Below, piece after piece: positions 2,900-64,000 of a DNA stretch of 64,000 bases. The translations under genes and the position numbers were made by a program. The first letter of the stretch is position 1; the number at the start of each line of letters is the position of its first letter. A model generated the notes under the pieces. It was not told the DNA's origin. It made no database searches and saw only the letters and a program-made list of their open reading frames with translations. The stretch is from Saccharomycopsis phalli (taxonomy: Eukaryota; Ascomycota; Saccharomycetes; Ascoideales; Saccharomycopsidaceae), in assembly GCA_020342235.1 (NCBI GenBank), contig CP073212.1, positions 2,271,167 to 2,335,166 on the forward strand, in the 5' to 3' direction.

Positions 2900-3005
2900 G
2901 ATGAGAGATTATTTCATTCCCTTTTCAAGTATAAATAGTTCGACTTTTCTCTGAATTGTCAAGCGAATATATTTTAGCTATTTTACCAACTTCGTATCCT
3001 AGTTT
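2900..3005 (+). repeat. LTR-like remnant, family D
   Basis: Contains CAAGTATAAATAG and GCGAATATATTTTAGCTATT, shared in order with copies near 32500, 33240, 34960 and 37990. A TATA box followed about 50 bp later by the conserved block suggests the promoter half of an LTR. Ends are not resolved. Confidence 0.5.
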
Positions 3006-3904
3006 GTTGAGGTTGAACACTACGAGTAAGTCACTGATACCCTCCTGACATATCGAATAGAATCAAGCCAAAAACGGTGCATAACTACTCTAAAACGGAC
3101 TGGTTAAAGGTACGTGCAATACTAGACAAGCGTCGGTTCGCAAGCGCCATCCACACAGAGGATGAATTAAACAGGGTATCCGCCAAGTTAACTCAGACTC
3201 TAAGGCAACTAATTGACAGAAACACTCCGATGAAACTAGTAAATAGCCGTTCAAAAAGGTGGTTCACTCAAGAAGTCAGAGACGCGTATCGAACTGTCAC
3301 TAGCCTCGCAATGGACGATCCAGAACGAAGCAATGCTCAAAATGCCTTTCAGGAAACTGTTCAAAAAGCCAAATCCAAGTGCTGGAATGATTTCCTACTC
3401 AAGTTGGATCACACCACCATCTGGACTGCTTACCGATACACAAACCCAGCAAAGCGCCATAGAATGATGAAACTGTACGAGGAACAACACGAAGCCTTCG
3501 GCAAAACCTTTTACCACAGATTACCGTGGGTGAGAGCCTCACGCCAGCTTCATTCCAACCGCACAACACTCATTGGGACGACATCGAACCAATAACGAAG
3601 GAGGAAATATTCAACACCATCAGATACCTAAAGCTCAAAAAAGCCCCAGGTCCTGACCAACTTACCGTTGGTCAAATCAGGGAGCTTTGGCAGGGGAAAG
3701 CCTTCTCTGACCAGTTGGAATTGATCTACAACGCGTGCCTCAAACTTGGAGCATTCCCCACACAGTGGAAAACTAGCATCACGGTAGTAATCCCGAAACC
3801 AGGAAAAGCCAATTATGAGACACCAAAATCATTTCAACCAATCAGCTTACTCAATATACTTGGGAAAATCTTCGAGTCAATCATGACCCAAAGATTGGTC
3901 GCCA

Positions 3905-3938
3905 GGGGGCAGGAGGTTTGGGGGGGCAGGAGGTTTGG
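3905..3938 (+). repeat. Perfect 17-bp tandem duplication at SINE 5' end
   Basis: GGGGGCAGGAGGTTTGG occurs twice head to tail (3905-3921, 3922-3938). The second copy supplies the 5' strand of the tRNA-like acceptor stem. GCCCC at 4013-4017 directly follows the 3' strand. Confidence 0.85.
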
Positions 3939-4392
3939 CCGAATGGAAAACACCTCATGCCTTATGGAGGGCGCATCATGAGGTAGTTACCGGGTTCGAG
4001 CCCCACCAAACCGCCCCAATACTCAAGAAAGTCTCCAGAAAGAGCACACTACGCCTCAGAAGGGCAATACAAGGAAGTCTCGCAAACGAGCAATGAACGA
4101 CCCCGACGAGTCGTGCGCCCATCGTCACGAGATTCAGCGGCCGGATAGCGCCGGCATTTAGCCGAAGGATGGCCAGGCTTCTCGCATAACCAATAGCCAG
4201 TCACGTTAAACCACTAACAACACTGCTCCCATTGAAGTTTTTCAGCCCATATAACCGTTTAGGGTTATAAAGGGTTTTCTTCAATAGAATGCTGCCTCAG
4301 GATGTTCCTGAGTGAAAATATATCTGTCGAATCACCGTGTTTCCGGAGACAATATATAGCTAAATACAGAACTAAATATACTTAACTTAACT
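3905..4392 (+). mobile_element. tRNA-derived SINE inserted in the LINE
   Basis: The 488-bp insertion is flanked by a perfect 10-bp target duplication TTGGTCGCCA (3895-3904 and 4393-4402) that splits the LINE coding frame. The 5' part is tRNA-like (3932-4012). A box TGGCCGAATGG lies at 3936-3946, B box GGTTCGAGCC at 3993-4002, and a perfect 7-bp acceptor stem pairs GGTTTGG (3932-3938) with CCAAACC (4006-4012). The 3' half (about 4129-4375) matches the LINE's own 3' end (about 5640-5872), including CTGCCTCAGGATGTTCCTGA and GGAGACAATATATAGCTAAA. Pol III transcription and mobilisation in trans by the LINE are inferred from the classical SINE layout. Confidence 0.9.
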
Positions 4393-5899
4393 TTGGTCGC
4401 CAAAATCCAACTCCCATCTTACCAATTTGGGGGGCGCAAAGGTTACTGCGCAACGGATGCGGTTACAACCTTAGTAAATAATCTCAAGGTCCATGCCCAG
4501 ACTCACCTCATGGACAACCAGAAAATGCCACTAAACCACTCCAATCACTCTGGAGCAGTCCTAGTTGACATTGAAGGTGCCTTCAACAACATGAGCCACC
4601 CGATCCTACTACAAAAGATGCAGGCCGTCGGAGCTCCACCCGAGATAATCAATTGGACTAGCAACTTCCTTCAAAACCGAAGCACTCAGCTAAAAATTGA
4701 TGGACAGTTATCAGACCAGCACCTCCCCGTTACGTTCGGAGTCCCACAAGGCTCTCCAATCTCTCCAATCCTCTTCATGATCTACACCCACGACCTCTAC
4801 AACCGGCTTTAGCGGAAAGGGGCAGTGGCCCTAGGATTCATTGACGACATTACAATTGTCAAAACGGGATCCCGTGGCGATATTGAGCATACCCTTCAGC
4901 GATGCTTACAGGAATGCCATCAATGGGGTCAAGAGAATTTCACAAGCTTTGACTATGGCCCGAAACTACAATACATACGATTCTTCCCGAATCGAGGACG
5001 GTTACCGAACTGTGAATCCAGCCTCCAGCTTCCGGACGGAGGACGAAAGGAGGAAACCAACGAGGTCAAGTTATTAGGCATTACCCTTGATTCAAGACTC
5101 AGCTTCAGGAGCCATCTAAAACAAACATTGTCCAAGATGCGCCGTACTGCTGAACAAATAAGGTACTTAAGCCGAATGACACGAGGAACCACGGGACGCA
5201 CCACGATAATATTGTTCAAAACGTGTGCAGTCCCAATCATATCGTATGGACTCGAGGTGTTCTATAACAGCATGACAAAAACCCAATGGGGTCAGGTCAG
5301 TGTGATATTCAACTCAATCCTACGGCTGGCTCTAGGCCTCCTCAGACCCACATCCACCCCGATCATCTATATCGAAAGTGGTATTCCACCACCAACGATC
5401 CTACTCAAGTCCTTGGCAATAATGAAATCCATGAGATGGTTCATGAATACATGACCCAAAGTGCAAACGATGCAGAATTCACTCCCGCTCCATCATACAT
5501 AACCTCCAATGTCCAGAGCTCTTAGAAGCTCGAATTCTATCACGCATTGATGACATACTAGATTCCACCCATGGCATACACAATACGCTTGGAAAAGTGT
5601 TTGCGAATCGGTTCATGAGTTTAGTTTTACCAGAACATGATGAGATTCAGCGGTCACATTCGACAACAAGGGTGACCAGGCTTCTTACGCAATCAATACA
5701 AGCACTACCTATCAACAATATGACTGCTCTCATTGAAGCTTTTAATCCCAAGCAACTAAATGAGGGTTGACAAAGGGTTTTCTTCAACAGCAATGCTGCC
5801 TCAGGATGTTCCTGAGTGAAACTATATCTGTTGAATAACCGTAATGCCGGAGACAATATATAGCTAAATACAAATATAAATATTATTATTATTATTATA

Positions 5900-7067: not shown

Positions 7068-9146
7068 ATGATTCTTTCAGCTTTACTGCTATTGTACCAA
7101 TTGGCTTTTACTGTTGCCTCTAGACCAGATTCATCACCAAATAACTTGATTTCAATTATCGATACTTCTTTTGGCAAAAGAAATGCTTTAGCGAAATATT
7201 CATCCTCTGTCACATCTTCAGCACTTTCTATGGCTTCCGAAGCTGCACTGAGCCTTGCCTTAGCTCAAACAACTACCGTCAGCATGAATTTTTCCAAGTT
7301 TACTCAGAGTGCTTTAGACGATGCGTCTCTGGAAGTAACAAATGTATACTTGTCCGATACCCTTGAAGCAAGCGCAGCATCTGATGCCGCATCTTCAGCA
7401 CTATCACTGGTTGTTGCTGGTGAAACAACTGCGGAAGCCACCGTTGCACTCAGTACTGATTATGTTGCCTCAGCTACAGTGACACCTGCTTCTGCACGTG
7501 CATTTATCGGTATTGGTGTTGGTATAGCTGAGATAGATCTTGATTTTGGTAACGGCGTCATTTCCACCATTGCATGTACTACAAGTGTGACACTCACTGT
7601 TGTAACAGATATTAGCTCTACTATTTCTGCTACTGTTACTGAAACTGTTGAAAATACTGCTACAGGATGGGCTACTAATACTGCCAGTTCAATGGCTTCA
7701 TCTTTTGGAACTTTACTGGCCTCCGAGCTTAGCTCTCTAGTCGCAGAAAGTTTGGCATCCACTTTCTCAGACCAGGTTTCATCTTCTGCTGCCGAAAGTG
7801 CTTCCTCATTAGCATCCGAAAGTGCTTCTTCCTTAGCAACAGCAGCTGCTACAGATTCTGAAGTCACCACTACAGCTACAGCTACAGTTTCAACTAGTAC
7901 TGAATCAACGTACACCAATACTGTGACTCAAACGGTTATGCAAGATGCTACTGCCACAATACTGAGACTAGGATTTTTAATGGAAGCAAACCCATTCAAG
8001 AGAGACTTGGGTAAGAGAGATGATATTGGTGATGTTATTACTGTCACAACTACTACACCGGTTGTTGTTACCGTACCTGTCACTATTCCGTTTACATTTG
8101 ACAATTTCGTTGTTGCAAGTGCCGTGGCTTCAGCACTGCCAACAATAACTACTCCGGAGGACAATACTAAAACTACCACTCCGGAGGATGATACTACAAC
8201 TACTACGCCAGAGGATAATACTACAACTACTACTCCAGAGAATGATACCACAACTACTACTCCAGAGGATGATACTAAACCTACTACTCCGGAGGACAAT
8301 ACTACAACCACTACTCCGGTGTTCAATAGTACAACTACTACTCCGGAGTACAACACTACAACTACTACTCCAGAGGATGATACTACAACTACTCCTCCGG
8401 AGGATAATACTACAACTACTGCTCCAGAGGACGGTACTACAACTACTGCTCCGGAGTACAATACTACAACTACTACTCCGGAGGATGATACTAAAACTAT
8501 CACCTCAGAAGATGACACTACAACTACTTCAAATGATCCTGGATTGACAGTTCTGTCCAAATTTCAGAATTCTACAACTTCTATTTGTTTTTCTTCACAA
8601 ACAGCCATTTCTTTGCAAACAATCATTGTGACAACTTCTGACTGCGATACTCGACCATGTCATGTTGTGACAGTTACATCTGTTATTCCATGGGTACCAG
8701 AACATGGTACTCCAACTGATGTGCCAGGTGATGGCTCGAACTCTGGGTCTGGGTCTAATTCAGATGCTGGCTCTGGTTCCAATACAGGTTCCAACTCCGG
8801 TACTGGTTCTAGCACTGGCTCTGGTGCTGATTCTAACTCCGGTTCTAACACTGGGCCTGGATCTAACTCTGGGTCTAGATCTAACTCTGAGACTATTTCT
8901 AATTCTGGATTAAACACTGACTCTGGTTCAGAATCTAACTCTTATTCAAACACATGTTCTAACTCTAGTTCTGACTCTAGATCCAACTCTCCAACCTCAC
9001 AAGCACCTGATATTTCTACTTTATCTTCGTCAGTTCAGTTGCAAAGTTCTCAAGTCATTGCGTCATTTCAACATGCCAATACTGCAAAGAAAATACCTAT
9101 TCCATTTCAAGACTTAATTATATTTGCCATCAACCTTGCATTATGA
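7068..9146 (+). CDS. Secreted Ser/Thr-rich wall protein with PED-Thr repeats
   Basis: 692 aa from ATG 7068. Residues 1-18 form a signal peptide (MILSALLLLYQLAFTVAS). Residues 20-300 are Ala/Ser/Thr-rich. Two Lys-Arg dibasic sites near residues 310-320 (NPFKRDLGKRDD) look like Kex2 sites. Residues about 361-487 are a 9-residue repeat (PEDNTTTTT variants), followed by the two-cysteine motif SDCDTRPC with VVTVTSVIP (about 524-543), a Ser-Gly-Asn stretch (about 555-640), and the C-terminal tail NTAKKIPIPFQDL with a hydrophobic end. The layout matches the partial protein ending at 2576, so the two are paralogues. GPI-type anchorage and heavy O-glycosylation are inferred. Function in adhesion is plausible but no binding domain is visible. 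Confidence 0.88.
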   Translation: MILSALLLLYQLAFTVASRPDSSPNNLISIIDTSFGKRNALAKYSSSVTSSALSMASEAALSLALAQTTTVSMNFSKFTQSALDDASLEVTNVYLSDTLEASAASDAASSALSLVVAGETTAEATVALSTDYVASATVTPASARAFIGIGVGIAEIDLDFGNGVISTIACTTSVTLTVVTDISSTISATVTETVENTATGWATNTASSMASSFGTLLASELSSLVAESLASTFSDQVSSSAAESASSLASESASSLATAAATDSEVTTTATATVSTSTESTYTNTVTQTVMQDATATILRLGFLMEANPFKRDLGKRDDIGDVITVTTTTPVVVTVPVTIPFTFDNFVVASAVASALPTITTPEDNTKTTTPEDDTTTTTPEDNTTTTTPENDTTTTTPEDDTKPTTPEDNTTTTTPVFNSTTTTPEYNTTTTTPEDDTTTTPPEDNTTTTAPEDGTTTTAPEYNTTTTTPEDDTKTITSEDDTTTTSNDPGLTVLSKFQNSTTSICFSSQTAISLQTIIVTTSDCDTRPCHVVTVTSVIPWVPEHGTPTDVPGDGSNSGSGSNSDAGSGSNTGSNSGTGSSTGSGADSNSGSNTGPGSNSGSRSNSETISNSGLNTDSGSESNSYSNTCSNSSSDSRSNSPTSQAPDISTLSSSVQLQSSQVIASFQHANTAKKIPIPFQDLIIFAINLAL
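8151..8530 (+). repeat. 27-bp coding tandem repeat, about 14 units
   Basis: Units encode PED(D/N)TTTTT with variants such as PVFNSTTTT and PEYNTTTTT. The unit is one residue longer than the 24-bp unit of the paralogue at 1-2576, so the arrays either arose separately or diverged in unit length. Confidence 0.85.
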
Positions 9147-9220
9147 GCAAATCGCAAAATTTTATTAGCTTGAAGACTAGTTTTTCATCTGTCGCAGAGT
9201 TTTCTTTCGACGACTACATA

Positions 9221-9318
9221 GCAGCACCGTCCTTAGTCTTCGACGGCGAAGTATAAATCTCCTATAGGAGCCTAGTATAGCTATAGCCTTAAATAAATAT
9301 TATTATTATTATTATTAT
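9221..9318 (+). mobile_element. LINE-type 3' tail, second tail class
   Basis: Sequence starting CACCGTCCTTAGTC and ending AGTATAGCTATAG, AAATAAA and seven ATT units. Both ends match the 3' end of the LINE remnant at 37251-37338, and the two ends also occur around the block at 43227-43595. Interpreted as a very short 5'-truncated retroinsertion about 75 bp after the wall-protein stop codon. Confidence 0.6.
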
Positions 9319-9640: not shown

Positions 9641-10650
9641 GATTATAATTATAATAATCATTATTATTGTCTCTCGATACACAATGATTCGACGAATATA
9701 TTCTCATTCAGGAAAATCCTGAGGCAGCATTACTGTTGAAGAAAACCCTCTGTCAACCCTCACTTGGTTGCTTGGGATTAAAAACTTCAATGGGAGCAGT
9801 CATATTGTTGGTACTCAGTGCTTGTATTGACTGTGTAAGAAGCCTGGTCACCCTTGTTGTCCAATGCGACTGCTGAATCTCATTATGTGTTGGATGAGTC
9901 TTGCTCCAACACGTTCTGGTAAAACTTAATGAGTTTGTGGACTGATTTTTGGTCGGCAAACACTTTTCCAAGTGTATTGTGTATGCCATGAGTGGAATCT
10001 AGTATTTCATCAATGTCCGATATATTCCAGCTAAGAGCTCTGGATGAAGATCATTTATAATGGTTATCATATATAATGGAGGGAGATTATGTTCCACATC
10101 TTTTGCATTTCGGGTCTTTATTGCCAAATAGATTGATGAACAAGCCTGTAGGAGAAATGGTTCCTTGATATCATCAGTTGTTGCAATATCTAAAGACCCT
10201 TACAGTCTGAAACAACGGATTAAATCTCCCTTAGTGCATGGCTTGACTCTGGGTAGTACGACAAACAGCATAGCCTGGTTATGATAGGTCGTTTGAAACT
10301 AATTGTCAGATCCAAGCACTTAGCCGCATCACTTACAGATCTCGATGACGCACTACACTAATATTGTCTAAGACATACACAGTACCTCTTGTCCACTACG
10401 GACTGGAAGTCATCTATGACATGTCAAACCCCAAATATAAACCATCAGAGATTTTCTAGAATATTTCATTTCAAACGACACAAGGTATTCTAGAGCTTTC
10501 TTTAGGCAGAATCCTCAACATTGCAGCAAAATCACACCAGATCCAGCTACACCTAAGACGCATTACCATTGATAGATGCATCCAATGGTTTATCAAGATC
10601 AATTCACAAAATACGCTCAAAAGAAAAGCACTAATAAATAGTGCAAGGGG
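9641..10650 (-). mobile_element. Decayed LINE copy with 5' inversion
   Basis: On the minus strand, 10175 down to 9641 matches LINE positions about 5440-5899, including the C-terminal coding block (9753-9989), CTGCCTCAGGATTTTCCTGA and an ATT/AAT-rich tail. Adjacent to it, about 10300-10650 matches LINE positions about 5160-5460 but on the plus strand (PLVHYGLEVIYD corresponds to PIISYGLEVFYN). Neighbouring parts of the LINE are therefore joined in opposite orientations, the signature of a 5'-inverted insertion. Many stops make it inactive. Confidence 0.7.
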
Positions 10651-21004: not shown

Positions 21005-21291
21005 TGTAACGAGAAAAGGTCAAGACTACTCTTCACGTGATTGTACCCTGTGATAATGTTGTGATTGTGTTCCTTAGTACTATTGTGATTGTGTTCGGAG
21101 TGTCCCACATATTACACAAGTACAAATCCATTCTTAGGAAAAGTATAAATAGCTGTTTAAGTTGCTAGTAATGGGATATCTTAAGTTCACTTTAGAACTA
21201 TTTACAACTTATATTTGTAGTTACTCTTATTATCTTATTGATTAACTCGATATAAGTGTTATAGCAGAAGCGTTGAATAAATTCTGTTATA
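21005..21291 (+). repeat. 5' LTR of Ty3-like copy 1
   Basis: 287 bp, from TGTAACGAG to TCTGTTATA. Contains CACGTGA early on and a TATAAATAG box near 21144. By eye it matches the 3' LTR throughout, suggesting recent insertion. Confidence 0.93.
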
Positions 21292-21293
21292 TT

Positions 21294-21303
21294 TGGTAGC
21301 GCC
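21294..21303 (+). promoter_or_regulatory. Primer-binding site, initiator tRNA-Met
   Basis: TGGTAGCGCC begins 2 bp after the 5' LTR and is complementary to the 3' end of yeast initiator tRNA-Met, including CCA. The same 10 bases serve as the minus-strand primer site in Ty1. Confidence 0.88.
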
Positions 21304-21345
21304 ACAAGGTTATACATTAGAAGAAGAAGACAACCAGTCATCATC

Positions 21346-21681
21346 ATGCCACCACGAGCACAGCAGGTCACAAGTGAAGGGACAACCGACGAACCTCGCA
21401 AGCCGGATCACTTTCAGAAGATACCAGACCTCACTGGACAAGCCACGGGGGAAGAAGCAATGAATTTTAAAACAGCTTGCATGAGAGGAGTACACCACGG
21501 ATGGGATGATGCGACAAAAATCAATGCCATAGGAAGTTGCATGAAGGAGACGGCAGCAACATGGTTTAATCAATATTGGACGACTTTATCAACATGTGTT
21601 CAGGGAAGATTTACAGACAAATGGGGCCACATTCCAAAGAGTATCACATTATATCTATATCATTCCTGGAAGCAAACCTAG
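21346..21681 (+). pseudogene. Truncated gag of Ty3-like copy 1
   Basis: 111 codons from ATG 21346. The first 90 or so resemble a gag N-terminal region (FKTACMRGVHHGW, then ETAATWFNQYW). The frame then crosses a deletion junction near 21640 into RT sequence read out of frame and stops. The rest of capsid, nucleocapsid and protease is missing. Confidence 0.75.
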
Positions 21682-21813
21682 TTACAAGCGACCATATCGA
21701 ATGAACCCGGAAGATCGTGTGGAATTAAAGAAACAAATTAAAGAACTTATTGAGCACCAGAAGATTTTCCCCACGTCGTCGCCATATGGAGCTCCGGTGT
21801 TATTTGTAAAGAA

Positions 21814-24036
21814 GAATTCAAGGTAGAATCCCCAGCACAAGCGAGGTCCTTTGCAGGATTAGCCAGTTATTATCGAAGATTTATCAAGAATTTTGCTCAA
21901 ATTGCGAAGCCGCTTCATGATTACCATAATAACAAAGTAACGGAGCCAGAAGCACTCAAGGCTGCCGTGCTAGCATTAAAGTATAAGTTGACTCATGCAC
22001 CGGTGTTACAAATTTTCAATCCAGATTTAACGTGCAGGGTAACAGCAGATGCATCCAAAGAGCATATCGGAGCAGTACTGGAACAATACGATCAGAATGG
22101 AAAAACGGTGGGAGTCGTGGCGTATATGTCCAAGGCTTTACAAGGTGCTCAATTGAATTACGACATCAGAGAGAAAGAATTACTTGCTATTATTGAAGCT
22201 TTTAAACAATGGCGCCATTATCTTACTATGCCGTTTGAAACCTTTTCAGATCACCACTCTCTCACATATCTCAATTCAGCAAAGAATGAAAACAACCAAC
22301 GTTTATTGAGATGGCAGCATTTCCTAGCAGATTTTAATTTTGTGATCCGATATAAACCGGGGTATAATAAAGTTGCTGATGCCCTTAGTCGAGACACAGC
22401 CGCTAATGCAGTGGCCAATTTAGAAGAACTACAAAATGATGAAGACGTCCAGCCAAATGAATTAGAGCAAGGACCTGAAGAAGAGCGAATCATTCCTCCA
22501 AATTTAAAGAATACGGAAGCAGAACGCTTGCCTAAGCTTACCAAAGAGGATTACTTGGCAGACAATTATTTCAAAGAAATTTATCAAACTCTCGATGGGG
22601 ACATAGAATGCCCTAGAGAATTAAGGAGTCTTGTCAAGAAATTTAAGATCGCATCATTTGAAAATATCAGATTATTAGTATTCAGAACGTCTGCCAATGC
22701 GGTAGTCAGATTATGCATTCCACATGGTTCAATTAGACATAGAATAATGGAGACTGTACACACGTCCCTTGGAGGTCTACACATGGGAATAACCAAAATG
22801 GTATATCAAATTCAAGACTTACATCTTTATTGGCCCAATATGTGGCAAAGTATACGACGTTTTGTGACGCACTGCAGTACATGCGCACGAATAAAAGCAT
22901 CCAACCAATATACGGCAGGAATATTAAGACCTTTGGAAGTTCCTCAAGCAAGATGGTCGGATTTGTCCATGGATTTTATAACGGGCATTCCTATGGCAGG
23001 AAAAGAGAAATATGATTCTATTATGGTCGTGGTCGACCGTCTCACAAAGCGGGCGACGTTTATTGCAAATCATAAAAAAGATACCGCTGCGGACATCGCG
23101 AAACTTTTCTATCAAAGAGTAGTTTGTGAGCATGGATTACCGGTGACCATAGTGTCAGATAGAGACAAAATATTTACAAGTGACTTTTGGACAGCACTTA
23201 CCCAATTGATGGGAATAAAACAACAGTTATCCACGGTGGCCCATCCTCAAACAGACGGTCAAACGGAAAGAATGAATAGAGAATTAATAAAACTCATGAC
23301 AATTCATAATTTGGATAAAGATAATGAATGGGATGAAGTTCTTCCTACCATACAGTTTGCATATAATAGTCAGTTCCAAGAAAGCATAAAAACGACACCC
23401 TTCTTTGCAGATGTTGGATATCATCCTAGATATTGGACCGTAATGACTGAGTTGGAAACGTTAGCAATTATGACTAGTATTCCTAAACTAAGTGCCATCC
23501 AATTTATAAGACGACAAACTAAGATTATTGCGGATATACAAATTCAAATGGCTGAAGCTCAAGCTACACAAAGCATTCAATTTAATAAGAAGCGTACTCA
23601 TATGACTTATGAGTTAGGAGAACTAGTACTCATTCACAGAAGAATCTTAAAAGATTATGAAAGGAAGCCAAAGAAATTTGTGCCTATATTTTATGGCCCG
23701 TTTCCTATTACTAAAACGTCAGAGTTCAATGTGTATCGAGTACGAATTACTCCCCGAAAAACTATTAAAGTTAATATCAAAAATATGAGAAAGTACTATC
23801 CTATGGAGTTAGCTGAAATAGGTAGCAAGTTTGATAAAGAAAGAAACGATATTATCTCAATTCTAGAAACAGGAGATTCCAGTGTGGTCGTACTTTATAA
23901 AAACTACTCGGAACCCGTGACTATACCAAAAGAATGGATATACTCCCTATCTCAAGATCATCAACAACGATTAATGAGGGAACTACAAAATGAGGAAGAG
24001 AGTTTTCCTGATCTTGGTCGAGACGCCCAAAAATAA
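21814..24036 (+). pseudogene. Pol remnant: RT end, RNase H, integrase (copy 1)
   Basis: Open from the junction at 21814 to TAA 24036 with no proper start codon. It begins at the RT/RNase H connection (RSFAGLASYYRRFIKNF), then RNase H with acidic residues in TADAS, REKELLA and FSDHHSL. Integrase follows, with an N-terminal zinc-binding region (HTSLGGLH, then CSTCARIK) and a D,D,E core (SMDFITG, IVSDRDKIF, GQTERMNREL), then a C-terminal GPF-like segment (FYGPFPITK). An RT N-terminal stub lies just before in another frame (21650-21826: YRMNPEDRVELKKQIKEL, then SPYGAPVLFVKK). The RT region with the catalytic Asp pair is absent. RNase H and integrase look intact but need a fused or rescued start to be made. 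Confidence 0.88.
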
Positions 24037-24047
24037 AATGGAGCGTA

Positions 24048-24334
24048 TGTAACGAGAAAAGGTCAAGACTACTCTTCACGTGATTGTACCCTGTGATAAT
24101 GTTGTGATTGTGTTCCTTAGTACTATTGTGATTGTGTTCGGAGTGTCCCACATATTACACAAGTACAAATCCATTCTTAGGAAAAGTATAAATAGCTGTT
24201 TAAGTTGCTAGTAATGGGATATCTTAAGTTCACTTTAGAACTATTTACAACTTATATTTGTAGTTACTCTTATTATCTTATTGATTAACTCGATATAAGT
24301 GTTATAGCAGAAGCGTTGAATAAATTCTGTTATA
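24048..24334 (+). repeat. 3' LTR of Ty3-like copy 1
   Basis: 287 bp, same ends as the 5' LTR. Preceded by AAAATAAAATGGAGCGTA, a weak polypurine-type tract. Confidence 0.93.
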
Positions 24335-32261: not shown

Positions 32262-32352
32262 ATGTGTCTTCCTGGGCGAAAAGTATATATTTTTCAAATT
32301 ACTGGGTACTTGGAGACAATATTTAGTTGAATTTAAAATAAATAATATTATT
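32262..32352 (+). mobile_element. Diverged LINE/SINE 3' tail, first tail class
   Basis: Contains TTCCTGGGCGAAAAGTATAT, then CTTGGAGACAATATTTAG and AAATAATATTATTA, collinear with the ends of the LINE at 5815-5895 and the SINE at 4305-4385. The 5' extent cannot be determined. Confidence 0.55.
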
Positions 32353-32499
32353 AAGATTGGCCCTTCTATTAAGGTATGTCATGTCGTATGTCGGTGAAAT
32401 ATGAGACAGTCAAGCCACTTTTACCGTCGTTGTAATAGAGACCAATACCTGTTTTAATTAATTCCAATACGAGTATCAAACTGTTTAATGCTACATCTA

Positions 32500-32615
32500 G
32501 GCATGTATCTGGGTTTCATTTTCCTAGCTATAAATAATATAACTTTTTTTAGAAAGTGTCCAGCAAATATATCTTGGCAACTTTCCTAATACACATTCTA
32601 GTTACTATCCTACAG
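32500..32615 (+). repeat. LTR-like remnant, family D
   Basis: Block CTATAAATAATATAAC then GCAAATATATCTTGGCAACT and CTAGTTACTATCCTACA, collinear with other family D copies but more diverged. Confidence 0.45.
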
Positions 32616-32969: not shown

Positions 32970-33310
32970 TGTGACGGATCTCGAATTTACAGGCCACTTT
33001 AAGGTAATAGCAGTAGCTTTGGCAAAATAATCAATGTGCAACAGCATTGTATTTATTACAGCTTATTAGTTACGGCAGTAATATATGTATTGTAATATAG
33101 CAGCTGTAGTAATGATGAAGAAAAAGTTACCCTGAAATTCTATATGCCGTCTTTTCTGGCTCTCAGGAAATGGTCTAGTCAAGTCCATTCCTTTCGACCA
33201 AAGAATATGTCTTATCTTCTCCAGATATAAATAGCCAGACTATTCAAAGAATATTTAAGCAAATATATTTTAGCTATTTTACCAATTCGTGTCCTAGCTA
33301 CTATATTACA
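32970..33310 (+). mobile_element. Probable LTR combining repeats G and D
   Basis: Starts TGTGACGGATCTCGAATTTA (family G) and continues into family D text (GATATAAATAGCC, AAGCAAATATATTTTAGCTA), ending CTATATTACA. TG and CA termini and an internal TATA box fit an LTR of about 340 bp. No matching target duplication was found, so the ends are provisional. Confidence 0.5.
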
Positions 33311-34849: not shown

Positions 34850-35026
34850 CAACTTCTTTCTGATTCTGTCTCTTGTCGCAAAGGTCATGGTCTAGCCAGG
34901 TTCATTCCATTTTTACAGAGAAAACGAGTCTCCTTGCCCAAATACAAATAGTCTTACTTTTCCTTAATATCCAATCAAATATACTTTAGCTAATTTACCA
35001 ACTTGTATCATAGTTGGTACATTACA
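34850..35026 (+). repeat. LTR-like remnant, family D
   Basis: Contains GGTCTAGCCAGGTTCATTCC, GAGTCTCCTTGCCC and CAAATATACTTTAGCTAATT, ending GGTACATTACA; collinear with 37930-38080. Confidence 0.5.
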
Positions 35027-35114
35027 ACCAGCATGACCTCCTATTTATATTTTCTTTGTATGATTAGTCATCATCGACACCGTTATAATTTCAAACTCAA
35101 AATATAAAAATCCG

Positions 35115-36099: not shown

Positions 36100-37338
36100 A
36101 TTCTGTAGATGAAGGCCTTTCCCCGAGCACATTCTCCTCGCATAAAGTTATCATTAACTCTATCAGCCCGATAACCAAAGAGGAAATATAAACACATTAT
36201 GCTACTTGAAATTAAAGAAGGCCCCAAAGTCGAACTAAGTAACGGTGGAGCAGATAAGACAACTATGGAAAGGATCACATTTCCTGTATCAAATTGAAGT
36301 CATCTACAACCCATGCCTCTACCTATGAACGAGCCCGAACCAGTGGAAGGAAAGTATCATAGTGATCCCCAAATCAGCTAAACCCGATTACAAAAATGCC
36401 AAGACATATTTGCCGATAAGTCTCTTGAATATCACGTGGAACATCTTTGAATCATGGAGCGTTTCGCGGATTCGATCAGACTACCAGACCAACAGTTTGG
36501 AAGTCAGACAGGATAATATGCGACTGATGATGTTATGGAACTAATCAATGATGCGGACATGGTCAAAAATTGCTAGAAGAAACGTAAACTACGAAGGTAC
36601 CAGAAGGATATCAGCACTCCCCCATCCTCCTTCTCCCCAATGGGACAACAAAGGACGAGTCTTCAGAGGTGAAACTACTAGGGATATATCCTTAGACTCA
36701 AAACTAGGCTTCAAGCAACACATTGTAAACATTTAACTTTGATTAAAGAGAACAATCGGCCGGATATAGGCTACCAGTTGCATCAAAAATGGAACCCGGA
36801 GGAAAACCTCGCTGATCTTGTTTAAGACATGCGTGTTACCCCTCATCACCTATGGACTAGAAATCCTCTAAAAGTTTAACCCTGACTGCGATCCCAAGTG
36901 CACTAGATGCAACAATCCCTCCCCAACAATATTTCTTGACCTATGATGCCCAGTATAGAGGTATTTTGAACACATGAAACATTAGGCGAAGGCATCATAA
37001 GCAGAGCGTAGATTCGCCGCCTCTTCACAGAAGCAAAATCAATTCACCCCCTTATAGAATTCTACATGTTAATGATGGATGGGTAGATTCTCTTCCTTTC
37101 TTGTTATAGCATCTCAAGGGCGACAGGTGGTCCTAGGAGCAAGACTCCACGGCTCCTTCTGAGTCATATCTCTTCAATAGTTCCTTAAAGGTCAAGTTGA
37201 AAGTTTTTATCCCCATTTCAAGGGTTTTCTCTCGACTCAAAAATTAGCGGCGCCGTCCTTGGTTGTTTAGACCGTGAAATATCAACATCGTCTTTCAGGG
37301 GAGCCTATATAGCTATAGAAGTAAATCAACGTAATATT
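36100..37338 (+). mobile_element. LINE remnant, second tail class
   Basis: Decayed ORF2 blocks in order: CCGATAACCAAAGAGGAAAT and following (36170-36300), VIPKSAKPDYKNAK with PISLLNI (36355-36435), a QFGSQT-like block near 36490, an ETTRDISLDSKLGFKQH block (36660-36725), and a thumb-like region (36740-36880). Most of the palm is deleted. The end (37240-37338) carries CGCCGTCCTTGG and CTATATAGCTATAG, unlike the first LINE's 3' UTR, although coding blocks are homologous. Confidence 0.7.
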
Positions 37339-37379
37339 GACGTACATACTACGTATGTGACGAATAATCAAGGTTGTGT

Positions 37380-37867: not shown

Positions 37868-38080
37868 TGAAGAAGAATGCTTACCATAATATTTTTGTTA
37901 CTTCCTATTGTTTTCTAGTCCAATCTCTTGTACAAGGGCAATGGTCTAGCCAAGTCCATTCCCTTTCTACAAAGAGAATGAGTCTCCCTTTTCCAAGTAT
38001 AAATGGTTAGGCGTTTCTTTGCACACACAAGTAAATATATTTTAGCTATTTTACCAACTCCTATCCTAGTTACAATACTA
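37868..38080 (+). repeat. LTR-like repeat, family D
   Basis: Contains GGTCTAGCCAAGTCCATTCC, CCAAGTATAAATGG and GTAAATATATTTTAGCTATT, near-identical in blocks to 33160-33300. Lies just 3' of the minus-strand tRNA-Val. Confidence 0.55.
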
Positions 38081-38245: not shown

Positions 38246-38532
38246 TATAACAGAATTTATTCAACGCTTCTGCTATAACACTTATATCGAGTTAATCAAT
38301 AAGATAATAAGAGTAACTACAAATATAAGTTGTAAATAGTTCTAAAGTGAACTTAAGATATCCCATTACTAGCAACTTAAACAGCTATTTATACTTTTCC
38401 TAAGAATGGATTTGTACTTGTGTAATATGTGGGACACTCCGAACACAATCACAATAGTACTAAGGAACACAATCACAACATTATCACAGGGTACAATCAC
38501 GTGAAGAGTAGTCTTGACCTTTTCTCGTTACA
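38246..38532 (-). repeat. 3' LTR of Ty3-like copy 2
   Basis: 287 bp; reverse complement starts TGTAACGAG and ends TCTGTTATA. Confidence 0.93.
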
Positions 38533-38543
38533 TACGCTCCATT

Positions 38544-40769
38544 TTATTTTTGGGCGTCTCGACCAAGATCAGGAAAACTCTCTTCCTCATTTTGTAGTTC
38601 CCTCATTAATCGTTGTTGATGATCTTGAGATAGGGAGTATATCCATTCTTTTGGTATAGTCACGGGTTCCGAGTAGTTTTTATAAAGTACGACCACACTG
38701 GAATCTCCTGTTTCTAGAATTGAGATAATATCGTTTCTTTCTTTATCAAACTTGCTACCTATTTCAGCTAACTCCATAGGATAGTACTTTCTCATATTTT
38801 TGATATTAACTTTAATAGTTTTTCGGGGAGTAATTCGTACTCGATACACATTGAACTCTGACGTTTTAGTAATAGGAAACGGGCCATAAAATATAGGCAC
38901 AAATTTCTTTGGCTTCCTTTCATAATCTTTTAAGATTCTTCTGTGAATGAGTACTAGTTCTCCTAACTCATAAGTCATATGAGTACGCTTCTTATTAAAT
39001 TGAATGCTTTGTGTAGCTTGAGCTTCAGCCATTTGAATTTGTATATCCGCAATAATCTTAGTTTGTCGTCTTATAAATTGGATGGCACTTAGTTTAGGAA
39101 TACTAGTCATAATTGCTAACGTTTCCAACTCAGTCATTACGGTCCAATATCTAGGATGATATCCAACATCTGCAAAGAAGGGTGTCGTTTTTATGCTTTC
39201 TTGGAACTGACTATTATATGCAAACTGTATGGTAGGAAGAACTTCATCCCATTCATTATCTTTATCCAAATTATGAATTGTCATGAGTTTTATTAATTCT
39301 CTATTCATTCTTTCCGTTTGACCGTCTGTTTGAGGATGGGCCACCGTGGATAACTGTTGTTTTATTCCCATCAATTGGGTAAGTGCTGTCCAAAAGTCAC
39401 TTGTAAATATTTTGTCTCTATCTGACACTATGGTCACCGGTAATCCATGCTCACAAACTACTCTTTGATAGAAAAGTTTCGCGATGTCCGCAGCGGTATC
39501 TTTTTTATGATTTGCAATAAACGTCGCCCGCTTTGTGAGACGGTCGACCACGACCATAATAGAATCATATTTCTCTTTTCCTGCCATAGGAATGCCCGTT
39601 ATAAAATCCATGGACAAATCCGACCATCTTGCTTGAGGAACTTCCAAAGGTCTTAATATTCCTGCCGTATATTGGTTGGATGCTTTTATTCGTGCGCATG
39701 TACTGCAGTGCGTCACAAAACGTCGTATACTTTGCCACATATTGGGCCAATAAAGATGTAAGTCTTGAATTTGATATACCATTTTGGTTATTCCCATGTG
39801 TAGACCTCCAAGGGACGTGTGTACAGTCTCCATTATTCTATGTCTAATTGAACCATGTGGAATGCATAATCTGACTACCGCATTGGCAGACGTTCTGAAT
39901 ACTAATAATCTGATATTTTCAAATGATGCGATCTTAAATTTCTTGACAAGACTCCTTAATTCTCTAGGGCATTCTATGTCCCCATCGAGAGTTTGATAAA
40001 TTTCTTTGAAATAATTGTCTGCCAAGTAATCCTCTTTGGTAAGCTTAGGCAAGCGTTCTGCTTCCGTATTCTTTAAATTTGGAGGAATGATTCGCTCTTC
40101 TTCAGGTCCTTGCTCTAATTCATTTGGCTGGACGTCTTCATCATTTTGTAGTTCTTCTAAATTGGCCACTGCATTAGCGGCTGTGTCTCGACTAAGGGCA
40201 TCAGCAACTTTATTAGTATACCCCGGTTTATATCGGATCACAAAATTAAAATCTGCTAGGAAATGCTGCCATCTCAATAAACGTTGGTTGTTTTCATTCT
40301 TTGCTGAATTGAGATATGTGAGAGAGTGGTGATCTGAAAAGGTTTCAAACGGCATAGTAAGATAATGGCGCCATTGTTTAAAAGCTTCAATAATAGCAAG
40401 TAATTCTTTCTCTCTGATGTCGTAATTCAATTGAGCACCTTGTAAAGCCTTGGACATATACGCCACGACTCCCACCGTTTTTCCATTCTGATCGTATTGT
40501 TCCAGTACTGCTCCGATATGCTCTTTGGATGCATCTGCTGTTACCCTGCACGTTAAATCTGGATTGAAAATTTGTAACACCGGTGCATGAGTCAACTTAT
40601 ACTTTAATGCTAGCACGGCAGCCTTGAGTGCTTCTGGCTCCGTTACTTTGTTATTATGGTAATCATGAAGCGGCTTCGCAATTTGAGCAAAATTCTTGAT
40701 AAATCTTCGATAATAACTGGCTAATCCTGCAAAGGACCTCGCTTGTGCTGGGGATTCTACCTTGAATTC
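38544..40769 (-). pseudogene. Pol remnant: RNase H and integrase (copy 2)
   Basis: Counterpart of 21814-24036 with one extra Thr codon. RNase H acidic residues and the integrase D,D,E residues are present. The RT catalytic region is absent and there is no proper start codon. Confidence 0.88.
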
Positions 40770-40901
40770 TTCTTTACAAATAACACCGGAGCTCCATATG
40801 GCGACGACGTGGGGAAAATCTTCTGGTGCTCAATAAGTTCTTTAATTTGTTTCTTTAATTCCACACGATCTTCCGGGTTCATTCGATATGGTCGCTTGTA
40901 A

Positions 40902-41237
40902 CTAGGTTTGCTTCCAGGAATGATATAGATATAATGTGATACTCTTTGGAATGTGGCCCCATTTGTCTGTAAATCTTCCCTGAACACATGTTGATAAAGT
41001 CGTCCAATATTGATTAAACCATGTTGCTGCCGTCTCCTTCATGCAACTTCCTATGGCATTGATTTTTGTCGCATCATCCCATCCGTGGTGTACTCCTCTC
41101 ATGCAAGCTGTTTTAAAATTCATTGCTTCTTCCCCCGTGGCTTGTCCAGTGAGGTCTGGTATCTTCTGAAAGTGATCCGGCTTGCGAGGTTCGTCGGTTG
41201 TCCCTTCACTTGTGACCTGCTGTGCTCGTGGTGGCAT
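40902..41237 (-). pseudogene. Truncated gag of Ty3-like copy 2
   Basis: Same 111-codon truncated gag as copy 1, with the same junction into RT sequence. Confidence 0.75.
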
Positions 41238-41291
41238 GATGATGACTGGTTGTCTTCTTCTTCTAATGTATAACCTTGTGGCGCTACCAAA

Positions 41292-41578
41292 TATAACAGA
41301 ATTTATTCAACGCTTCTGCTATAACACTTATATCGAGTTAATCAATAAGATAATAAGAGTAACTACAAATATAAGTTGTAAATAGTTCTAAAGTGAACTT
41401 AAGATATCCCATTACTAGCAACTTAAACAGCTATTTATACTTTTCCTAAGAATGGATTTGTACTTGTGTAATATGTGGGACACTCCGAACACAATCACAA
41501 TAGTACTAAGGAACACAATCACAACATTATCACAGGGTACAATCACGTGAAGAGTAGTCTTGACCTTTTCTCGTTACA
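41292..41578 (-). repeat. 5' LTR of Ty3-like copy 2
   Basis: 287 bp, followed on the minus strand by the same initiator tRNA-Met primer site (GGCGCTACCA at 41280-41289 on the plus strand). Confidence 0.93.
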
Positions 41579-42227: not shown

Positions 42228-43173
42228 CTAATCGCTGACACCCTGCATGTATTTTGTCCATGTTTCCAAGCTCTGTTGATACAATGAAATACCATTTCCA
42301 ATAATCCGTGCAGTAGTTCCCTTGCTCAGCTTAATAGGATAACTGTTGGAAAAGTTTTGGAGAACCTTTTTCATTTGCTGTGATGTGAGGTCATTATTCA
42401 TAAACCTACTTCCCGGGTTTGGGTTGGTGGAAATGAAGTATGCAATAAGACCAGAGACTTGTGGTGCTGCATACGATGTCCCCTGAACCACTGCATAACT
42501 CAAATTGAGATCTTCGCCTGTAGCTAAAAAGTCGACACATTGCCTATGGTTTGAAAAATACGATTCGACTCCTTGAATATTGCATGAACCGACTTTTATT
42601 GCTTTAGTAGAACTTACTATAGGAAGTTTGCAGGCATCTACCCCCGTGTTTCCTGTTGCAATAACAACATGAACATTTGGGTTTTTTTTGAAGAATTTTA
42701 TCCAAATATTACAGCAGGACATGAGGCCCATCGAAAGGATCTTCGTCATAACCTAAACTGACATTAATCACTAAACCCTTGGGATACTTCTTTACACCGA
42801 TTGACTTGTAATGCTGAAGAGAAAACTCAATTGCGTTCGTAAGATTACGTACGTTGAGTTTTTTATCAAATTTTACTGGCACTATAAAGACCTTGGCCAG
42901 TGGTGCTACACCAAAATCTTTTCCAGCAGCAAGAAGCGCAACATCCCTAGCGTGAAAAGTGCCATCCACATTAACAGCACGCCCTTTATCCTTTGGATTT
43001 AAATAGAGCACTTCGGGCGGGTATTTAAACTTCCTAGCGTGAGTAGACGGTGATATCACAGATGCTAAGTCCACTACGTAGATCGCAACTCCATTACCAC
43101 CTTCTGAAAGGTAATCATAATGGCGAGGCCCAATAGCTTTTGGTAGAGTCTGCCAATAGATCTCGTTGAACAA
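42228..43173 (-). pseudogene. Subtilisin-like serine protease, broken
   Basis: Paralogue of the intact protein at 61543-62502. Reading from 43173, the first block contains the Asp region (GVAIYVVDLA) and a diverged His region (TFHARDVALLAAG) and ends at an in-frame TAA (42709-42711). The second block, one frame over, contains VHVVIATGN (oxyanion Asn) and GTSYAAPQVSG (catalytic Ser). The frame change coincides with a run of eight A (42682-42689 on the plus strand), a typical slippage site. The N-terminus also lacks a signal peptide: upstream in frame there is a stop and retroelement-like sequence. Two lesions plus a lost 5' end make it a pseudogene. Confidence 0.85.
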
Positions 43174-43226
43174 GCCAAACGTTTTTATTGCTATCCAATG
43201 GGTTTACTTCTGGCATTCATATTAGC

Positions 43227-43595
43227 GCTGCCGTCCTTAATTATTGTCGTGGTTCAGCCATTTACCGACTGAATCCGTAGATACTAAGCACACCAGATCA
43301 ATAGTGGCGCAGAAATTTTTCATGTACCTGGTAAGATAATCGCTGTTGTTATCCATGAATATCAGCCATCTTCTGTAAGGGATTTACGCTAGTTAGGGGA
43401 CAATTATCGTTTAGCTATCACACCCATCCGGTTATTCAATACAAAGGAACAAAACAATTATTTAGGAAGTTTATAGATATAATCTAATTAATCATGGCTA
43501 ACCGTGCTGGTAAATCTAAACTTCAATAATTATCATACGGCAAAGAATCAATCTGGCATAGTATAGCTATAGATCACAAATAAATATTATTAGTA
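43227..43595 (+). repeat. Composite repeat with LINE-type tail, family F
   Basis: Starts GCCGTCCTTAATTATTG and ends GCATAGTATAGCTATAG with AAATAAATATTATTAG, the second tail class. The middle (about 43246-43518) is repeated in inverse orientation at 61114-61384. It begins TGGTTCAGCCATT, which in the other copy (TGGTTCAGCGG) fits an A-box consensus. Either a tail split by an insertion or a SINE-like element; no clear B box. Confidence 0.5.
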
Positions 43596-43599
43596 TTTG

Positions 43600-44671
43600 C
43601 AACATCAAGCCCAAAAAATATTGATACCTATAACTGAAATCATCAACCACATGCAGACATACAAGTAGATCTGGAGGCCAAGGGCTTTTCATGTAGTCTC
43701 ACTCGGAAAAAATATAAATCGAAGTTAAAATAGTTTGAGAACATAAAAAGTACCAAATTATTCTATCATAGTAAGATATGAGTGTCATATTAGAGAGAAT
43801 CCACAAATTACAACAAATATCGTACATGTGCTAATTTTCACAACTCCATGGTACCCCTTTTCTCGGCTTCACACACAACATAAAGCCACTTATCTAAACT
43901 TCATAACAGGAAAAGAGACAATTTACATTATATCTCCTTTGTGCCTAGCCCCTTGTAGGGTTAATCATACCACCTTTAAATCCTTCATACGACAATATTA
44001 TCAACTAAACCTTAGAATTTCTTCGTGAGTAGTGTAGATGGAAATTCTTAAAGACTAAAATCCTTCGCCAGGTTCACTTAAAAATACACTGCGATTGACT
44101 TTAACCTTAATGATTTCACGTCACCAAAGCCTGCCAAGTACGCCCAATTTTCAACAACATCGAGAAGTACAAAGAGCTCTATTCCAACTAAACTAATTTT
44201 TTTAGATTCTAGCAACTAAATACTCAAAAAAGAACATATTACTAAGCCCTAGATGACCCATTTTAAGAATTTATTTCACCCTTCCCGGGAGAAGATTATT
44301 TTTACCTAAGCGTCCAGTTATGCTAATTGTGTAAAATAGGAAAGTACGCAAGTACTCTGTTTCTTTAGCATTGAATAACCCAGTGAATGGGTAATGGTGA
44401 ACTTCCATTTTCTTCATTGGCATTTCAGTTTTGCAGCAGCGTAGATCTTGAACCAACACAGTTGCTATATAGTGAATGATGCCATTCATTACAAGCTCCT
44501 GATATTTAGCTTTGCAAAACTATTCATTCAACTCTCTATGTGGCTACATTCTCTTTGAATCTTCGTCCAATCCTTGAACGCCTCTAAAATACAGGCATCA
44601 GGAAATCGAGTGATTTTAAAATGCTCATGTTATTCGTCAGTCAATAAATTGTTGATTTTTTGCGGTCTGTG
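43600..44671. other. Intergenic, no gene seen
   Basis: No supported gene. A family F fragment with TTGAATAACCCAGTGAATGG lies near 44360-44400. Confidence 0.5.
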
Positions 44672-56780: not shown

Positions 56781-56790
56781 GATTTACGTG

Positions 56791-56975
56791 ATGAGATTCA
56801 GCGGTCCAACTTGGTAACAAGGGCGACCAGGCTTCTTACACAGCCAATACAAGTACTATGTATCAACAATATAACTGCTCACACTGAAGTATTTAATCTC
56901 AAGCAGGCGAGTGAGGGCTGACAAAGGGTTTCTTCAACAGCGATGCTGCCTCAGAATTTTCCTGAGTGAAAATTA
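56791..56975 (+). mobile_element. LINE 3' fragment, first tail class
   Basis: GATGAGATTCAGCGGTCCAA through GCTGCCTCAGAATTTTCCTG matches LINE 5638-5820, including the C-terminal coding block. The final part of the tail is missing. Confidence 0.75.
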
Positions 56976-63692: not shown

Positions 63693-63696
63693 ATGT

Positions 63697-64000
63697 GGGG
63701 ATGTGGGGATGTGGGGATGTGGGGATGTGGGGATGTGGGGATGTGGGGATGTGGGGATGTGGGGATGTGGGGATGTGCGGATGTGCGGATGTGCGGATGT
63801 GCGGATGTGCGGATGTGCGGATGTGCGGATGTGCGGATGTGCGGATGTGCGGATGTGCGGATGTGCGGATGTGCGGATGTGCGGATGTGCGGATGTGCGG
63901 ATGTGCGGATGTGTGGATGTGCGGATGTCGGATGTGCGGATGTGCGATGTGCGGATGTGCGGATGTGCGGATGTGCGGATGTGCGGATGTGCGGATGTGC
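63697..64000 (+). repeat. 8-bp tandem array, probable telomere or telomere-proximal repeat
   Basis: Ten perfect GGGGATGT units (63697-63776) switch to GCGGATGT units (from 63777) that run to the window edge. Irregular units cluster near 63910-63950: GTGGATGT, a 7-bp CGGATGT and a 7-bp GCGATGT. The G-rich strand runs 5' to 3' toward the right edge, as at a right-hand chromosome end. The CGGATGT core also occurs in Candida telomeric repeats. Telomeric identity is inferred; the window stops inside the array. Confidence 0.7.

Follow-up and report, generated by a model that had tools for sequence, protein, structure and literature searches.

Insertion of a 488-bp element into a decayed LINE

What is the 488-bp insertion that interrupts a LINE at this locus, and can it be read as a SINE that shares its 3' end with the LINE? 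LINE-tailed tRNA-SINEs of animals and plants consist of a head, a body and a LINE tail, with stringent recognition of the LINE 3' end. We addressed the question in a window of 64 kb, the whole stretch of DNA analysed, which has a GC content of 39% and by its gene content looks like that of a yeast-like ascomycete (RAI1, endonuclease V, DUF1996, DUF4246 and Ty5-type Gag; also Ty3-type elements). The insertion and the surrounding LINE, hereafter LINE1, are laid out as follows.

3541 to 5897, forward strand: LINE1, an interrupted, decayed LINE, recognised by an RVT_1 match on the joined empty site, by its translations and by an ATT tail
3541 to 3903 and 4403 to 4809, forward strand: LINE1 reverse transcriptase (RT), followed by a stop (4810 to 4812), the C-terminal part (4825 to 5454), a zinc knuckle and an (ATT)n 3' end
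3895 to 3904, forward strand: 5' target site duplication TTGGTCGCCA, identical to 4393 to 4402
3905 to 4392, forward strand: SINE-like insertion, 488 bp, bounded by the 10-bp duplications
4393 to 4402, forward strand: 3' target site duplication TTGGTCGCCA, identical to 3895 to 3904

When the insert and one repeat were excised, a continuous RT frame of 257 codons was restored. The joined RT matched RVT_1 with 77.2 bits over profile positions 1-140 without interruption; the downstream half alone scored 60.1 bits over positions 54-140, and the upstream half alone gave no RVT_1 match. A 10-bp direct repeat at 488-bp spacing, with 3 bp of slack allowed, was obtained in 34 of 200,000 random placements in the window. 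The perfect duplication and the restored frame indicate a genuine retrotransposition-type event in which no target bases were lost, and the target duplication named in the preliminary description was thus confirmed. Since the insert lies inside LINE1, it is younger than LINE1 and has been exposed to decay at this site for a shorter time. The window's list of open reading frames of at least 150 amino acids contains none inside the insert. The insert combines several SINE traits, being short and non-coding, with a perfect 10-bp duplication and a clean empty site.

LINE1 itself probably extends upstream of 3541. No target duplication of its own of at least 7 bp was detected in the stretches searched. 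The closest solved relatives of its RT piece are R2 retrotransposon proteins, too remote for the LINE to be assigned to a clade.

The insert shares its tail with LINE 3' ends

We compared the 3' part of the insert with LINE1 and with three further LINE-tail copies in the window.

4129 to 4384 (end approximate), forward strand: tail common with the LINE 3' end, from BLAST and MAFFT alignments to LINE1, C2 and C3
4296 to 4312, forward strand: stem-loop CTCAGGA-TGT-TCCTGAG, identical in LINE1 (5800 to 5816)
9665 to 10063, reverse strand: C2, another LINE 3' end copy, 77% identical to LINE1 over 384 columns by BLAST
56786 to 56973, forward strand: C3, a LINE tail block alone, 84% identical to LINE1 over 187 columns by BLAST
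32269 to 32353, forward strand: C4, a faint LINE-tail remnant, 71% identical to the insert tail by BLAST (E 6e-4)

The tail corresponds to LINE1 positions 5642 to about 5888, with 78.4% identity over the BLAST-aligned part (4165-4379) and 73% over 199 columns without gaps in an alignment of four sequences, which bears out the match of about 245 bp to the host LINE's end first described. The LINE-type (ATT)n is missing from the 3' end of the insert, where about two CTTAA units stand instead. Within the shared block, a frame is open in LINE1 (the zinc-knuckle frame), C2 and C3. C2 carries an in-frame stop directly before the block, as read from its sequence, and differences among the LINE copies show no third-position excess, so that the codon-position pattern is not coding-like. 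The LINE C-terminal coding sequence that the preliminary description placed in the shared tail is thus a possibility. C3 was considered as a candidate second SINE, since its LINE similarity begins at almost the same point as that of the insert; the stretch upstream of C3 (56341-56800), aligned with the insert head and body, scored 16, and 163 of 200 shuffles did as well.

The 17-nt hairpin is imperfect in C2 and C3, and no compensatory change was seen. The 49-nt pieces around the stem-loop gave z scores of -2.46 and -2.16 (2 of 200 and 6 of 200 shuffles, respectively, folded as well), and longer tail ends folded ordinarily (z -0.19 for the 120-nt insert end, and -0.99).

Other repeats in the window touch on the LINE inventory. 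Apparent LINE 5'-end matches at 33202, 34939 and 37985 were rejected as LINE copies, as they look like solo LTRs near tRNA genes. Solo-LTR-like copies lie at 2920-3012, 32562-32615, 33216-33308, 34974-35027 and 37988-38080, some near tRNA genes, and a naive comparison of the window with itself makes them look like LINE 5' ends. The window also has a second family of LINE tails, at 9180-9318, 37200-37345 and 43216-43600 on the forward strand, with the layout of a GCCGTCCTT-like stretch, then TATAGCTATAG, then a AAATAAATATTATT-like stretch. A TTTTCT-TCGAC stretch in two of its three tails recalls the first family, and by eye decayed RT-like sequence precedes the tail near 37200. No exact B box was found upstream of any of the three copies.

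The head carries exact Pol III boxes

The 5' part of the insert was resolved into the following features.

3905 to 3921 and 3922 to 3938, forward strand: 5'-terminal tandem duplication of 17 bp, 100% identical direct repeats at a spacing of 17
3923 to 4017, forward strand: head, with a drawable stem GGTTTGG/CCAAACC (3932-3938/4006-4012)
3936 to 3946, forward strand: Pol III A box TGGCCGAATGG, exact consensus, 57 bp upstream of the B box
3993 to 4003, forward strand: Pol III B box GGTTCGAGCCC, exact consensus
4018 to 4128, forward strand: body, between head and tail, with no similarity to the C-terminal regions of LINE1 or C2 above shuffles

Positions 3936-3946 and 3993-4003 agree with the A and B box consensus at every position. 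Only three exact B boxes occur in the window, and the other two lie inside tRNA genes. Dinucleotide shuffling of the insert gave an exact A and B pair, on either strand, in 1 of 20,000 sequences. The two boxes of the preliminary description accordingly hold. Its 7-bp acceptor stem holds in part: the stem can be drawn and is present in the whole-insert fold, but it is absent from the lowest-energy fold of the head alone, which is not a cloverleaf. From the sequence, the stem can be extended by GGGGC (3923-3927)/GCCCC (4013-4017) across a 4-nt bulge. When the whole insert was folded, a 12-pair stem formed with the 3905-3921 copy of the 17-bp duplication; of 100 shuffles, 2 were equally stable. 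The fold of 3922-4020 was more stable than all 200 of its shuffles (z -2.88).

The same description had derived the head from a tRNA, a claim that found no support in the tRNA models. The Rfam tRNA model did not match the head even at E≤10, and ARAGORN called no tRNA in it at five settings. We also considered an intron-bearing tRNA with a possible anticodon-intron-like helix. Among 1092 single deletions between the boxes, one was called by ARAGORN. However, 4 of 30 shuffled controls passed through the same deletions gave at least one tRNA call, and the single call was therefore rejected as evidence for such a tRNA. Because Rfam and ARAGORN were both silent, we refer to a type-2 Pol III head, of at most putative tRNA origin.

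The stability of the head fold, exceeding that of 200 of 200 shuffles, would also suit a processed pseudogene derived from a structured non-coding RNA, the 3' part of which would share ancestry with the LINE tail by chance. No Rfam family matched at its gathering score, however; the four matches at E≤10 were all far below theirs. The tail match of about 250 bp to the LINE end is also better explained by LINE machinery. We consider a pseudogene of this sort highly improbable.

The insert contains two T runs, T5 at 4238 and T4 at 4275, at which Pol III could stop before the insert's 3' end. No second head was found in the 64-kb window, where the best BLAST match outside the insert had an E value of 0.13.

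The body was examined as possible LINE coding sequence and rejected, as shuffles aligned as well in 46 of 200 cases against LINE1 and in 135 of 200 against C2. Elsewhere in the window it had no BLAST match better than E 3.7. A body without known origin leaves room for an internally deleted LINE, in which the head and body would be a LINE 5' UTR joined to the 3' UTR and the A and B boxes would be incidental or the LINE's own promoter. The window revealed no 5' UTR of this LINE family for comparison, and the one frame examined upstream of the LINE1 RT (3077-3595) has no Pfam match at E≤0.01. Against this stands the rarity by chance of exact boxes at tRNA-like spacing, as in the shuffles above, and we regard a deletion derivative as improbable.

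Tail divergence points to a probable separate lineage

We counted private changes, that is, changes confined to one sequence, in the 199 gap-free columns shared by the insert, LINE1, C2 and C3, with C4 left out. The insert carried 31, LINE1 6, C2 4 and C3 14, and the difference between the insert and LINE1 was significant (p 2e-5). Without C3, 248 columns gave 37 changes for the insert, 16 for LINE1 and 25 for C2, in the same direction and weaker. In a second alignment, the private changes of the insert numbered 28 in 135 columns upstream of position 4281 versus 1 in 41 columns at 4281-4345 (Fisher p 0.0035, the boundary having been picked after the identity profile had been viewed). The same columns of LINE1 held 3 changes in 135 and 1 in 41 in the stem-loop part.

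Because the insert is younger than LINE1 and yet has 31 changes against 6, most of the divergence of its tail pre-dates the insertion. Together with the sparing of the stem-loop part, this makes a lineage with its own history as a SINE more likely than a one-off chimera. The pattern, with changes upstream and a spared stem-loop, is as expected if a separately evolving element kept the end that the LINE enzyme recognises. An origin of the tail from a diverged LINE subfamily would produce the same pattern.

A one-off chimera would have formed if the RT had switched from LINE RNA to a short RNA with A and B boxes during one retrotransposition, giving a product that never multiplied. The single head found in the 64-kb window agrees with this, as does the 17-bp duplication at the 5' end, a hint that the RT jumped between templates during this insertion. 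Magnaporthe is known to contain such chimeras, with duplications of 10-20 bp (PMC2104539). A chimeric tail, however, should be close to the contemporary LINE, whereas the insert has 31 private changes per 199 columns against 4-14 in the LINE copies, and its changes spare the stem-loop part. The insertion is moreover younger than LINE1, yet its tail is the outlier to three LINE copies. We therefore judge a one-off chimera unlikely, albeit the strongest of the rival explanations.

Overall, there is good support for regarding this single copy as a non-autonomous element that has a LINE tail and a type-2 Pol III promoter and entered LINE1 through target-primed reverse transcription. We read the insert as one copy of a SINE-like, LINE-tailed element, with a probability of roughly two in three. 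Of the preliminary interpretation, the LINE-tailed element with Pol III boxes was upheld for one copy, and the tRNA derivation of its head was not.

Under the reading of a SINE-like, LINE-tailed element, Pol III would transcribe the element from the A and B boxes of the head, and at its 3' end the transcript would reproduce the end of the LINE together with the CTCAGGA/TCCTGAG stem-loop. A LINE reverse transcriptase encoded at another genomic locus would presumably bind this stem-loop end, nick the target and copy the RNA by target-primed reverse transcription, leaving the 10-bp duplications. The insert would thus have been mobilised in trans by LINE machinery. The 17-bp duplication probably arose when the RT, at the end of copying, jumped back to an internal site on that transcript or on a second one. 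Further copies of the element would be expected in the genome. A more tentative proposal, to which we give slightly less than even odds, is that the host is a budding yeast and that the copy belongs to a SINE lineage which is, or was until recently, active there, parasitises the resident LINE through the shared 3' stem-loop and forms with it the first described Saccharomycotina LINE-SINE pair.

Comparison with known LINE-tailed SINEs

LINE-tailed SINEs are already known as a kind from animals, plants and the filamentous ascomycetes Aspergillus and Magnaporthe. Those of animals and plants have the same layout as the insert and a conserved 3' stem-loop; they belong to another lineage, and the tRNA models gave no tRNA parent for the insert.

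AfuSINE2-1a of Aspergillus fumigatus is described as joining a head related to tRNA to a tail that resembles the 3' UTR of the LINE I-1_AF (PMC5063351). The AfuSINE2 families measure 140-493 bp, have low copy numbers and are flanked by 4-14 bp duplications, and AfuSINE2_4c adjoins a LINE RT (PMC5063351). Like the insert, AfuSINE2-1a has a Pol III head at its 5' end and a 3' part that resembles the end of a LINE from its own genome. By the descriptions there, AfuSINE2 heads were assigned to tRNAs, whereas the head of the insert was not recognised by tRNA models, and AfuSINE2-1a ends in ACT repeats rather than in about two CTTAA units. The AfuSINE2 host is a filamentous ascomycete, unlike the apparently yeast-like host here.

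Mg-SINE has a 3' end similar to that of the LINE MGL and is thought to capture the LINE machinery, according to the passages seen of PMC2104539. Compared by description, its length of 472 bp and its LINE-type 3' end resemble those of the insert, but it is present in about 100 copies (PMC5063351, in part) against the one copy observed here. The MINE chimeras (WEIRD-MGL) of Magnaporthe, attributed in the same portion of PMC2104539 to template switching on LINE RNA with 10-20 bp duplications, likewise fuse a non-coding head to a LINE 3' end. Unlike what template switching of the MINE type predicts, the tail of the insert has diverged from the LINE copies at hand.

For budding yeasts, the genome paper on Yarrowia lipolytica, a species with LINEs, speculates that Pol III transcripts could become SINEs, and the part of it available describes none (PMC5014426). 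A review of budding yeast genomes contains, in its available text, a species name as the only word beginning with 'sine' (PMC5499181). A survey of 1,239 assemblies, budding yeasts among them, classifies repeats including SINEs, as far as its accessible text goes (PMC12543289). No yeast SINE is reported in the portions seen of PMC6416283, PMC8091737, PMC7765829 and PMC3248453. In the open-access literature, covered mostly as titles and abstracts, with subscription papers and preprints outside the scope, we found no description of a SINE in a budding yeast. The insert is possibly the first of its kind in a yeast-like lineage.

Sequence collections made up mainly of prokaryotes, viruses and plasmids yielded no confirmed match to the insert. 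Peptide patterns gave unconfirmed matches in 3 stretches of viral contigs, and a pattern matched 40 stretches of genome contigs, likewise unconfirmed. Such misses are to be expected of a eukaryotic element and, given the composition of these collections, say little about yeasts.

If the reading is true and the yeast-like host can be cultured, its LINE-SINE pair would open the LINE enzyme's choice of RNA to tests by yeast genetics, and could offer a tractable yeast model for SINE capture.

Other features of the window

The window contains two Ty3-type elements in opposite orientation, at 21005-24334 on the forward strand (3330 bp) and at 38246-41578 on the reverse strand (3333 bp), which differ only by one 3-bp indel. 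In each, the two 287-bp LTRs are identical, and a separate 5-bp target duplication flanks the element (AGTGC and CAATG, respectively). In both, an open reading frame starts within the RT/RNase H region and, by eye, most of gag and RT is missing. A near-identical pair lacking most of gag and RT makes it seem that a Ty3-type deletion derivative moved recently. One CTG codon in a Ty3-like frame falls at a conserved leucine and gives a weak sign that CUG may be read as leucine in this host.

Regions 1-2576 and 7068-9146 appear by eye to encode adhesin-type Ser/Thr-rich repeat proteins, with DDPATTTS-like and TTPEDNTT-like repeats. An 8-bp tandem array at 63696-64000, in which TGTGGGGA turns into TGTGCGGA, runs off the end of the window and is possibly subtelomeric or telomere-like. 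A subtilase-like frame on the reverse strand at 61543-62781 matches Peptidase_S8, and by eye a second one resembles it at 42228-43173 on the same strand, where it is spread over two overlapping open reading frames.
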